From: Flavobacteriales bacterium
Lineage (GTDB): Bacteria > Bacteroidota > Bacteroidia > Flavobacteriales_C > GCA-002722245
DNA: 36,471 nt
Assembly (NCBI GenBank): GCA_029251005.1
Contig: JAQXEE010000068.1
Location: forward strand, 1-36,471
Reading direction: 5' to 3'
Positions within the stretch are counted from its first letter, which is position 1. The number at the start of each line of letters is the position of its first letter. Of this stretch, positions 13,841 through 18,503 are shown in pieces. A program made the translations under genes and the position numbers. The notes under the pieces are model-generated. The model was not told the origin of the DNA. It saw nothing but the letters and a program-made list of their open reading frames with translations, and did not search any database.

Positions 13841-15658
13841 ATGGCTTTCGGAAGGAACAAAGAAAAAAAAGGAAAAAAGGAAAAAGTTAAGCTTTCCAAA
13901 AACGCATACAAACAAGCAAAGAACTTCCTATCTTTTGTTAAGCCTTACTCAGGCGTTTATTTTATTGGATTTGTGTTTCTATTGCTATCTAGTGGTGTTT
14001 CTATTTCGTTACCAATACTTTTAGGTCAAATTCTTGGAGCAGATGCTTCTCAAATGACTGGAGAATGGGAGATTGGAAATATTGATAATATTTATGGTGT
14101 ACTTACCATTTTAGCAATTATTCTACCGGCTCAAGCAGTATTTAGCTTTTTTAGAGTTATTACGTTTCATTACGTAACGCACAATTCGATTAAAGATATG
14201 CGCCAAAAAGCTTTTGAAGTATTGATAAAATCACCACTATCTTTTTTTGATTCTAGTAAAACAGGAGAAACCATCTCAAGAATTTCAAACGATACAGAAC
14301 AAATTCAAGAAACTTTAACCACGACCGTTGCTGAATTCTTCAGACAATTACTGATTGTATTAGTTGGTGTTATATTTATTTTTAAAGTCAGCCCCAAACT
14401 AGTTCTAATCATGCTGGGTGTTCTTCCCATAGCTGCTATTACAGCTATTATTTTCGGAAGGTTTATTAAAAAGATATCTGGGTTAGCACAAGACGAGACG
14501 GCTAAGTCTAATCATATTCTTGAAGAAGCACTAGTTGGCATTAAGAGTTTAAAAGCATATACAAACGAGTTTATAGAATTAAAAAAATATTCACTTGCTG
14601 TTTCTAATGTCAAACAATTTAATATGAAAGCGGCCATATGGCGTGCCGTTTTTATTGCTTTTATCCTAACAATCATGTTAGGCGCAATTGTTTTTATTAT
14701 TTGGCAGGGAATTGAACTAATTAAAACAGGAGAGATTCCAAGACAAGGTTTTTTTCAATTCATTTTATTTACTGTTATGATTGGTACATCAATGGGATCA
14801 TTACCAGACTTATTTGCTAAAATTCAAAAATCAATTGGAGCAACCGAAAGCTTAATGACTATCATTCAACAAGAAACAGAAAATATTGATACATCAAAGC
14901 CTGTTGCTAATCATAAAACACTTCGTGGAGATATTGAATTAAATAATCTAGACTTTGCTTACCCAGGCAGAAAAGAAGTTCAAATATTAAACAATCTAAG
15001 CCTAAAAATTACGGCAGGAGAACAAATTGCTCTTGTTGGTGCAAGTGGAAGTGGGAAATCGACGATAGCAAGCCTTCTGCTCCAGTTTTACACGTTAGAC
15101 GGAGGGAATATTAAGTTTGATGGAAAACAAGCTTCAGATTATGCGATAAACGATTTAAGATCGCAAATGGCCTTTGTACCTCAAGAAGTGATTTTGTTAG
15201 GAGGTTCAATTGAAGAAAATATTAGGTACGGTAAGCCAAACGCTTCAGATATCGAGGTACAAGATGCTGCTAAAAAAGCCAATGCTTTCGATTTTATTAA
15301 CTCATTTCCGAATGCGTTTAAAACAGTTGTTGGAGATAGAGGAATTCAATTATCAGGGGGGCAACGTCAACGAATTGCAATTGCAAGAGCAATCCTTAGA
15401 GATCCTGCTATATTAATTTTAGACGAAGCAACTAGTGCGCTTGATAGTGAATCAGAAGTAGCTGTCCAAGATGCATTAAATAAACTTATGACAGGACGAA
15501 CTTCAGTTGTAATTGCTCACAGACTTTCTACAATTAAAAATGCAAATTCAATAGTGGTCATGGATAATGGCGCTATTGCTGAGCAGGGCACACACGATGA
15601 ATTGGCTGTGAAACAGAACGGAATTTATAAAAAACTTAGTGAAATTCAATTCTCTTAA
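13841..15658 (+). CDS. MsbA-like ABC exporter (membrane and ATPase domains fused)
   Basis: The 605-aa half-transporter has a Lys-rich cytoplasmic N-terminus, a six-helix type I exporter membrane domain (about 35-330; SPLSFFDSSKTGETISRISND is the typical intracellular loop), and an ABC ATPase. Walker A is GASGSGKS (400-407), the signature is LSGGQ (504-508), and Walker B is ILILDEATSALD. A following IAHRLSTI gives the switch His. It is expected to act as a homodimer flipping lipid A, another lipid, or a drug; the sequence does not settle which. rsmG starts immediately after the stop codon, so the two are co-transcribed. Confidence 0.9.
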   Translation: MAFGRNKEKKGKKEKVKLSKNAYKQAKNFLSFVKPYSGVYFIGFVFLLLSSGVSISLPILLGQILGADASQMTGEWEIGNIDNIYGVLTILAIILPAQAVFSFFRVITFHYVTHNSIKDMRQKAFEVLIKSPLSFFDSSKTGETISRISNDTEQIQETLTTTVAEFFRQLLIVLVGVIFIFKVSPKLVLIMLGVLPIAAITAIIFGRFIKKISGLAQDETAKSNHILEEALVGIKSLKAYTNEFIELKKYSLAVSNVKQFNMKAAIWRAVFIAFILTIMLGAIVFIIWQGIELIKTGEIPRQGFFQFILFTVMIGTSMGSLPDLFAKIQKSIGATESLMTIIQQETENIDTSKPVANHKTLRGDIELNNLDFAYPGRKEVQILNNLSLKITAGEQIALVGASGSGKSTIASLLLQFYTLDGGNIKFDGKQASDYAINDLRSQMAFVPQEVILLGGSIEENIRYGKPNASDIEVQDAAKKANAFDFINSFPNAFKTVVGDRGIQLSGGQRQRIAIARAILRDPAILILDEATSALDSESEVAVQDALNKLMTGRTSVVIAHRLSTIKNANSIVVMDNGAIAEQGTHDELAVKQNGIYKKLSEIQFS

Positions 15659-15659
15659 A

Positions 15660-16289
15660 ATGGCATTAGATATTATCTTAAAATATTTTCCAAATCTAAC
15701 TGATCATCAAAAAAATCAGTTTTCAAAACTTGGTCATTTATATACTGAGTGGAATAGCAAAATCAATGTTATTTCGAGAAAAGATATTGATGAGTTATAT
15801 ACAAGACACGTTCTTCATTCTTTAGGAATTGCAAAAATAATTAAGTTCAAACCAGGAACATCAATTATGGACGTTGGAACTGGTGGAGGATTTCCCGGAA
15901 TTCCATTGGCTATTCTTTTTCCAAAATCGAACTTTTATTTAATTGACACTATTGGAAAAAAAATAAAAGTGGTAACCGAGATAGCAAAAGCTCTTGAATT
16001 AACAAACGTTGAAGGCGTTCAAAAAAGAGCCGAAAACGTGAAATTCGATTTTGATTTCATCGTCAGTAGAGCTGTTACTTCTCTTCCTAAATTTAATGAT
16101 TGGGTAAAAGGGAAGTTTAGCAAAAAGTCATTTAACGACATTCCAAACGGATTGCTGTACTTAAAAGGTGGTGATCTAACCCAAGAATTGAATGAAGCAG
16201 GTAAGACATTTAAATCATATAATTTAAAAGACAGCTTCTCTGAAGAGTTCTTCGAAACTAAAAAAGTGATTTATTTGAAGGGTTTCTAA
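15660..16289 (+). CDS. rsmG: 16S rRNA (guanine527-N7)-methyltransferase RsmG (GidB)
   Basis: I place the start at ATG 15660, directly after the exporter's stop. An upstream GTG at 15639 in the same frame would overlap the exporter and add seven residues without family support. The resulting 209 aa is normal for RsmG, which methylates N7 of G527 in 16S rRNA using S-adenosylmethionine. Visible are WNSKINVISRKDIDELYTRHVLHSL-type N-terminal residues and the SAM site MDVGTGGGFPG (70-80). It is translationally coupled at both ends: 1 nt after the exporter stop, and a 1-nt overlap with the next gene. Confidence 0.93.
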   Translation: MALDIILKYFPNLTDHQKNQFSKLGHLYTEWNSKINVISRKDIDELYTRHVLHSLGIAKIIKFKPGTSIMDVGTGGGFPGIPLAILFPKSNFYLIDTIGKKIKVVTEIAKALELTNVEGVQKRAENVKFDFDFIVSRAVTSLPKFNDWVKGKFSKKSFNDIPNGLLYLKGGDLTQELNEAGKTFKSYNLKDSFSEEFFETKKVIYLKGF

Positions 16290-16504
16290 TGAACAATAGG
16301 GAATATACTTTAACTTTTTGTACTGAATGTTTAAATAGAAAGTTTAACATCAACAAAGGTATTATTTGCTCACTAATGAACAACATTCCTAATTTCAAAG
16401 GGAGTTGCCCTGATTATAAAGAAGATCACGAAGTTGTAGCCCGTAATTTATCTGTAATTGATGATTTAAATGGTCTTCACCAAAAAATAAACTTAGAAGA
16501 ATAA
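16289..16504 (+). CDS. Small Cys-rich protein, probably a truncated N-terminal domain
   Basis: This 71-aa protein has four ordered cysteines: CTEC at 11-14, Cys27 in GIICSL, and Cys40 in SCPDY. The pattern CxxC-x12-C-x12-C followed by an acidic stretch suggests a small zinc-binding domain. I recall this domain in Bacteroidota proteins where a C-terminal membrane part follows. Here the frame stops at 16502, but recognisable membrane-domain sequence continues in the same frame beyond it (see the adjacent pseudogene entry). The ATG overlaps the rsmG stop by 1 nt, so it is the third gene of the exporter-rsmG unit. Function unknown; whether the 71-aa stub is still made is open. Confidence 0.65.
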   Translation: MNNREYTLTFCTECLNRKFNINKGIICSLMNNIPNFKGSCPDYKEDHEVVARNLSVIDDLNGLHQKINLEE

Positions 16505-16717
16505 ACTTGGGGCCTCAATAAATTCGAGATTAAAAACGGTATTGTTGCTTGAGTTATTCTTATTTCGGGATCGCTAATTTGGTTTTGTGGTGCATGGACC
16601 TTAGGAATCATTTACTTATAACCTCCTATTCTCTTTGTTCTTGGACTTTAAATTCTTTTTAAGAGTGTTAAACTTAAAACCAACACTAAGCAAGCTTACG
16701 AAATTCGATCGATTTAA
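16505..16717 (+). pseudogene. Decayed C-terminal membrane domain of the 16289 gene
   Basis: The frame of the 71-aa gene, read past its TAA at 16502, continues as NKFEIKNGIVA, then VILISGSLIWFCGAWTL, then PPILFVLGL and ILFKSVKLKT. It is interrupted by TGA at 16550 and TAA at 16619, 16649 and finally 16715. All interruptions are in one frame, with no frameshift needed. The two hydrophobic stretches look like a two-helix membrane domain ending in a short basic tail. I interpret this as the inactivated C-terminal half of a Cys-rich/membrane protein. A bidirectional terminator just after it marks the old end of the unit. Confidence 0.6.
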
Positions 16718-16740
16718 TTAATCGAAAACAGTAAACAAAA

Positions 16741-16764
16741 AAACCTCAACGAAAGTTGAGGTTT
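16741..16764. terminator. Bidirectional rho-independent terminator
   Basis: A perfect 10-bp stem AAACCTCAAC/GTTGAGGTTT closes on a GAAA tetraloop, with A-tract on the left and T-tract on the right. It lies between the convergent exporter-rsmG unit and the ECF sigma gene (stop at 16789) and can serve both. Confidence 0.88.
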
Positions 16765-16788
16765 TAGTTTTAATTAAACGTAAAATCA

Positions 16789-17400
16789 CTAAATCTTCTC
16801 TTGCGTGTTTTTCATAATATTATACAAAAACTCTCTTGCTCTAAACAACTGAGCCTTTACCGTCCCCAAAGGAATATCTAGATGATCAGCAATTTCCTCG
16901 TAAGAAAACTCCTTAAAATATCTCAACTCAACCAAAGTACGGTAGCGCGGTTTTAGCCTCTTTACAACATCATGCATTATTTCAATCTTTTGCTTACGCA
17001 TGTACGTTTGCTCAGGATCGAGTGCGTCAGATTTTAAATCAATCTCTAATTCGCTTCCTTCATCATTTTCTAGAGTTTTATTGATTGAAAAAGTATTTTT
17101 CTTTTTCTTTCTAATAAAATCTATACAGTTATTTGATGCGATTTTAAAAAGCCAAGTGCTAAATGCATAGTTTGGCGTATACTGGTGTAATTTTTTAAAG
17201 GCTTTACCAAATGCTTCGATTGTTAAATCTTCAGCATCATCCTTATTATTCACCATTTTTAAAAGCATAAAATAGATTGAGTCTCGATAACGATCCATCA
17301 ATTCTGCGTAAGCTTTTTGTGATTTATTTTCTATAGCCTCCCTAACTAAGTTATAGTCATAGAGTGCTTTTTCCGATAAATTTGGTCCTGGTACTACCAT
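16789..17400 (-). CDS. ECF-type RNA polymerase sigma factor
   Basis: This 203-aa protein has sigma region 2 at about residues 30-100 (DAEDLTIEAFGKAFKKL; FSTWLFKIASNNCIDFIRKKKK) and region 4 at about 140-195 (LVELRYFKEFSYEEIADHL; LGTVKAQLFRAREFL, a helix-turn-helix). Regions 1 and 3 are absent, which is the ECF architecture. It would direct RNA polymerase to a dedicated regulon. Its ATG overlaps the glycosyltransferase stop by 7 nt (ATGGTAG), so translation is coupled. No anti-sigma gene lies next to it: the downstream side is a terminator. Confidence 0.92.
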   Translation of the reverse strand: MVVPGPNLSEKALYDYNLVREAIENKSQKAYAELMDRYRDSIYFMLLKMVNNKDDAEDLTIEAFGKAFKKLHQYTPNYAFSTWLFKIASNNCIDFIRKKKKNTFSINKTLENDEGSELEIDLKSDALDPEQTYMRKQKIEIMHDVVKRLKPRYRTLVELRYFKEFSYEEIADHLDIPLGTVKAQLFRAREFLYNIMKNTQEKI

Positions 17401-18503
17401 TTGCCCACTTTACTTTTAAATATTGTTCGAATTACTGCGTAATTATGAATTCCGATAGACAATATATCCGAGAATATAGTTTTAATCAAAATCGAACGCA
17501 CCCCAATTTTAAGGAATATTCTTTGAATAAAAGAATACATTGCAACTTTTTTTACTATGATAAATGTTGATATCAACAACAATTCGTCCGAATAATAAAT
17601 TAAGAAAGGGATTAAAAGATACCAAAGCGTCGTAAAAGAATAATACAAACTAAGTATTAATAAATTTCTTTTATTGTATTTAATTCCTGCTGACACATGC
17701 CTTATTTTTTGAGAAAAATAAGACTGAAAACTCAATTTTGGAACAGATTCTGTTTGCGCACCTTTGTTGTATATTAAATTAACTTTAGTCTTTTTGGGCA
17801 TTTGATTAATCAACAAATCATCATCTCCACTTGGAATATGGTAGTGAGACTTAAACCCTCCTACTTTTTCAAATAAACTTCTTTTGTAAGCAACATTTCG
17901 TCCAACCGACATATATGGGAAACCACTAACAGCCATTGATAAATAATTAGCAGCTATAAAACCTGTATCATTTTGAATAATTGAGTTAACAGTCCCTTTC
18001 AATTTTGAGTACAAGCTAACACCTAAAACCAATTCGCTTCCATCTGCAAATCCGTTAACTATACCAACTAACCAAAAAGCAGATAACGGCTTACAATCGG
18101 CATCTGTCATGATGAGGTAATCACTTTTAGCGTGCTTAATTCCAAATTCAAGCACTTGCTTTTTACCAAAAGAAGATTTTTCCTCTTGAAGCGTTACTAC
18201 TTTTAATTGACTATATTTTTTTTGAAACTCTTTTAAAACAGGTAAAGAATCATCGGTTGAATTATCATCAACAACCAAAACTTCAAAATCAGGATATTTC
18301 TGAGACAAGACAAACTCTAAAAACTGAGAGAGGTTATTCTTTTCATTTTTTGCGCAAATAATTACAGAAACAAAGGGCAATTTGGAGAATTTATCATTAG
18401 AGGGCACATGCTTTGCCATTTTTCTCCATGTAAATAAATAGAACAACAACAACCCTACTGTTACAAGAACAAACACAATATGTAAAATATCAGTAATCGC
18501 CAT
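17394..18503 (-). CDS. Membrane-bound family 2 glycosyltransferase
   Basis: This 369-aa protein has an N-terminal membrane helix (about 5-27), a GT-A family 2 catalytic domain starting at VSVIICAKNEKNNL, then VLVVDDNSTDDS and the metal/nucleotide motif MTDADCKP. GDDDLLINQMPK corresponds to the acceptor/catalytic acidic segment. About three hydrophobic helices follow near the C-terminus (residues 280-350). It probably transfers a sugar to a lipid or polysaccharide acceptor on the inner face of the cytoplasmic membrane; donor and acceptor cannot be read. It precedes and overlaps the ECF sigma gene, with which it forms a two-gene unit. Confidence 0.85.
   Translation of the reverse strand: MAITDILHIVFVLVTVGLLLFYLFTWRKMAKHVPSNDKFSKLPFVSVIICAKNEKNNLSQFLEFVLSQKYPDFEVLVVDDNSTDDSLPVLKEFQKKYSQLKVVTLQEEKSSFGKKQVLEFGIKHAKSDYLIMTDADCKPLSAFWLVGIVNGFADGSELVLGVSLYSKLKGTVNSIIQNDTGFIAANYLSMAVSGFPYMSVGRNVAYKRSLFEKVGGFKSHYHIPSGDDDLLINQMPKKTKVNLIYNKGAQTESVPKLSFQSYFSQKIRHVSAGIKYNKRNLLILSLYYSFTTLWYLLIPFLIYYSDELLLISTFIIVKKVAMYSFIQRIFLKIGVRSILIKTIFSDILSIGIHNYAVIRTIFKSKVGKW

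Follow-up and report, generated by a model that had tools for sequence, protein, structure and literature searches.

The gene directly downstream of rsmG in a 36,471-nucleotide stretch of Flavobacteriales DNA (contig JAQXEE010000068.1, here called the window) is very probably a truncated copy, in the course of decay, from an uncharacterised family of Bacteroidia proteins that carry four cysteines and a membrane anchor. Sequence comparison gives good support for the loss of its C-terminal membrane domain through nonsense mutation, since four premature stop codons hit residues that are conserved in both intact relatives and no insertion or deletion is needed. The decay itself is of an ordinary kind. 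It represents a clean domain loss caught midway, with sister species showing the intact state as well as another kind of loss, and it draws attention to a small family of Bacteroidia membrane proteins whose cysteine head lacks a model. Greater importance would follow only if the head were functional as a soluble protein.

The interrupted gene and its intact homologues

The rsmG gene, encoding the 16S rRNA m7G527 methyltransferase, occupies 15639..16289 of the plus strand (TIGR00138, E 8.7e-37; PF02527, E 6.9e-39). The Cys gene begins at 16289, with an ATG that overlaps the TAA stop codon of rsmG (16287-16289) in the sequence TAATG (16287-16291). From this start codon, a frame that is still open (16289..16504, plus strand) encodes a 71-aa stub consisting of the Cys4 domain and a linker, with cysteines at residues 11, 14, 27 and 40. 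Frame, coordinates and cysteines are as described in an initial annotation of this DNA. The annotation also counted four in-frame stops; their positions were correct, but together with the TAA at 16502 the frame contains five, of which four are premature. These are a TAA at 16502..16504, a TGA at 16550..16552, and two further TAA codons at 16619..16621 and 16649..16651 (all on the plus strand), replacing Lys72, Gly88, Tyr111 and Tyr121, respectively, each of which is identical in both intact relatives. The fifth stop, a TAA at 16715..16717 on the plus strand, is codon 143 and probably the ancestral terminator of the Cys gene; the intact relatives end at 139 and 146. No ATG, GTG or TTG that could serve as a re-initiation start was found in the stub frame past the first stop. 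With four stops before or within the C-terminal transmembrane domain, the window copy has no translated form of this domain. The Cys gene is single-copy in the window genome.

To look for homologues, the stub was used as a query in related genomes, including four congeners (G001-G004). It matched two of the four, and the matches lie in open frames of 139 codons (G004) and 149 codons (G002). Both intact loci were located in GTDB contigs as the congeneric Flavobacteriales MAGs SP250 (PBLA01000018.1) and SP330 (PBEC01000025.1), which carry intact syntenic homologues of 139 aa (L036:3001-3420) and 146 aa (L037:3001-3441), respectively. The homologues share with the window the Cys4 head, the site after rsmG and the C-terminal two-helix domain. 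In SP250 and SP330, however, no stop interrupts the membrane domain, and a second small 2-TM gene comes next, which the window lacks. The order ABC transporter, rsmG, Cys gene, convergent ECF sigma factor, GT2 and tgt is the same in the window, L036 and L037. This synteny is anchored by the ECF sigma factor (16789..17400, minus strand; TIGR02937, E 8.5e-35), a convergent neighbour with 95-96% identity to the L036 and L037 copies.

In tblastn, the 139-aa protein of G004 aligned to the window over residues 1-135 with 46% identity (E 6.9e-40), and the alignment spans the four stops, one TGA and three TAA. It passes into the decayed two-helix C-terminal membrane domain (16505..16717, plus strand), which lies in the same frame as the stub. 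The part past the first stop aligned to the two relatives without gaps over 59 codons, with 26/56 and 23/56 identical residues; a two-sequence search with the C-part alone yielded E values of 3e-18 and 3e-15. The relatives have sense codons at all four stop positions, and none of the stops is present in them. The initial annotation had read a two-helix membrane domain past 16502 without a frameshift and had proposed a search for homologues as a check of domain loss. This search bore out the proposal: the domain matches the C-terminal domain of two congeneric homologues, which run through the stop positions in identical synteny. A tree of rsmG did not resolve which congener is closest to the window.

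As is common in bacterial pseudogenes truncated by nonsense mutation, we observed premature stops with homology continuing beyond them, an uninterrupted sister-species orthologue at the same locus (G004, G002) and loss of a flanking gene. The window copy differs from such pseudogenes in that there is no frameshift and the N-terminal domain is fully intact.

Probable loss of the second membrane gene

Both intact loci carry the second small two-helix ORF downstream of the Cys gene and before the convergent sigma gene (L036:3421-3657, L037:3452-3748). In a third congener, G003, it was found directly after rsmG (L059:1201-1485, minus strand), and the Cys gene is absent. The G003 ORF shares 48% identity with its G002 counterpart, and the one of G004 is more distant. 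The second gene is thus found in all three congeners whose locus was found (G002, G003 and G004) and is missing in the window, where 71 bp separate the Cys gene from the sigma gene, compared to 275-389 bp in L036 and L037. The site at which congeners carry the gene (16718..16739) is without it, and the 71 bp also hold a bidirectional intrinsic terminator (16740..16765), shared with the convergent sigma gene, with an 11-bp stem detected on both strands (fold z -5.6). A search of the window's genome yielded no copy of the second gene, though such an empty result from a single genome is weak evidence. In the fourth congener, G001, which is 74% complete, rsmG had no match, and the locus of this genome was outside the comparison. 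In five genomes of the sister genus, neither the Cys gene nor the second 2-TM gene was recognised. As the second gene is gone from the window and the Cys gene from G003, the module of both genes is dispensable in the genus. The missing partner gene, the dispensable module and the broken family members in other genomes described below go beyond the initial annotation.

These observations suggest the following course of events. In the sister species, the intact protein consists of a ~50-residue CxxC...C...C head, a linker that is charged and helical, and two transmembrane helices at the C-terminus; its gene comes immediately after rsmG and is followed by the second 2-TM gene. In the window lineage, the anchor was lost through a nonsense mutation, as the alignment shows, and more stops accumulated once the anchor was no longer selected. 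The second 2-TM gene would also have been lost in this lineage, judging from the three congeners. Since the start codon of the stub still overlaps the rsmG stop, co-transcription with rsmG and translation into a soluble Cys4 peptide of 71 aa probably continue. The likeliest fate is complete loss of the gene, given that the module is dispensable.

The wider family of Cys4-head proteins

A head profile was built from 21 family members, with the window among the 21 rows, and had matches in 22 of the 395 genomes sampled from the class. It matched the window with an E value of 3.5e-23, and independent queries match the window as well. The head motif of the family is C-x2-C-x2-R...G-x2-C-x-L...F-x3-C...D. 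In the alignment of the 21 members, the window keeps the invariant C11, C14, C27, L29, F36 and C40 and the near-invariant R17, G24 and D46; every column conserved in at least 90% of the members is kept in the stub. The heads of this Bacteroidia family are fused to 2-TM, longer multi-TM or RDD (PF06271) domains, whereas the window has no translatable membrane part. Nearly all family members that we read have a membrane segment after the head, and no natural stand-alone Cys4 head was found among them. In other Bacteroidia, two members carry the head fused to an RDD-type domain with a significant match to PF06271 (L041, L044), and in two more an RDD-like domain was judged by eye (L084, L095). In its intact form, the protein probably carries a cysteine site, likely for zinc, and is tethered to the membrane, where the zinc step comes from the cysteine pattern only. 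With the head as query, Pfam and NCBIfam yielded no model and the PDB sequences no solved relative; neither plasmid nor Rfam searches were informative, and a literature search on the family found nothing. The head, being without a Pfam model, might merit one. An AlphaFold prediction with 3 sequences had a pLDDT of 57 and a pTM of 0.26, with only the two C-terminal helices at ~70, a quality too low to bear on zinc binding.

Besides the window, three members in the survey are broken, in G274, G263 and G046. The G274 copy (L048, minus strand, 128-codon ORF) has one in-frame stop within the membrane domain, and an intact copy of the same genus (L045 in G251) reads through this position. In G263 (L050, minus strand, 93-codon ORF), the Cys head is intact and a frameshift follows, with the membrane domain continuing in another frame. 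The G046 copy (L086, minus strand) is heavily decayed, with a large disruption and two of the four head cysteines replaced. It could be argued that the membrane anchor is repeatedly shed with the head left intact, by four stops in the window, one stop in G274 and a frameshift in G263, giving the head a recurrent soluble second life. We consider this improbable. The survey queries were head-based and under-detect copies with a broken head, and the apparent excess of anchor loss should not be over-read.

Modelling of the decay and alternative explanations

A dN/dS analysis with branch times from flanking genes was discarded, as synonymous sites were saturated (fitted times 36-47) and the omegas meaningless. 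It was replaced by a codon model in which a constrained branch is followed by a neutral tail with a length of u substitutions per site. For the C-part, the best u was ~0.15 substitutions per site, with a range of ~0.05-0.3 within 2 lnL units. The membrane part is also clearly alignable, and the loss may be called recent, as the initial annotation had done, in a relative sense. A codon model without the neutral tail cannot produce stops at all. With it, ~1.25 stops are expected at u = 0.15 and 2.1 at u = 0.3, compared to four seen without an indel. Under this model, the number appears mildly unusual for neutral decay but not enough to call for another mechanism.

For the N-part (1-49), the best u was 0-0.05 substitutions per site with an upper bound of ~0.15, which suggests continued constraint on the stub. 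A finer reading, which does not exclude decay of the anchor, is that the Cys4 head is now a free soluble protein under selection and only the anchor is junk. The absence of excess changes in the N-part and the retention of all four cysteines and all family-conserved residues would also fit such selection, as would the start codon overlapping the rsmG stop; the decayed G046 member, in contrast, has lost two of its four cysteines. However, the profiles of the N- and C-part overlap, the difference between them is not significant (twice the lnL difference ~1.9 for one parameter), and a shared u near 0.1 costs only ~1 lnL unit. The linker has strongly diverged, with 3/22 residues identical between the window and L036 compared to 8/22 between the two relatives, and the near-universal membrane segment in the family also speaks against a free head. 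We therefore regard a selected soluble head as a tentative possibility within the broader picture of nonsense decay.

The draft genome consists of 161 contigs and was the single assembly of its species in the analysis, and one could suspect that the gene is really intact and the stops stem from faulty sequencing or assembly. This is very unlikely, since it would require four independent nonsense substitutions within 150 bases together with the absence of the next gene, while the neighbouring genes are intact and have normal ends. Programmed readthrough or recoding to a full-length protein, which the initial annotation had rated as less likely than domain loss, would fit the well-conserved downstream frame. 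Yet the window has four stops of two kinds at three residue types where the relatives have none, instead of a single leaky stop conserved among them; the genes next to the Cys gene end normally, and an Rfam search of 15600-17500 gave no structure. Readthrough is thus very unlikely. AT-rich intergenic DNA often reads as hydrophobic, but a chance origin, with random hydrophobic sequence behind a short Cys-rich ORF, is refuted by the ungapped alignment to two syntenic homologues, in which the BLOSUM62 scores of the downstream 59 codons lie 10-11 SD above those of shuffled sequences and are reached by 0 of 20,000 shuffles.
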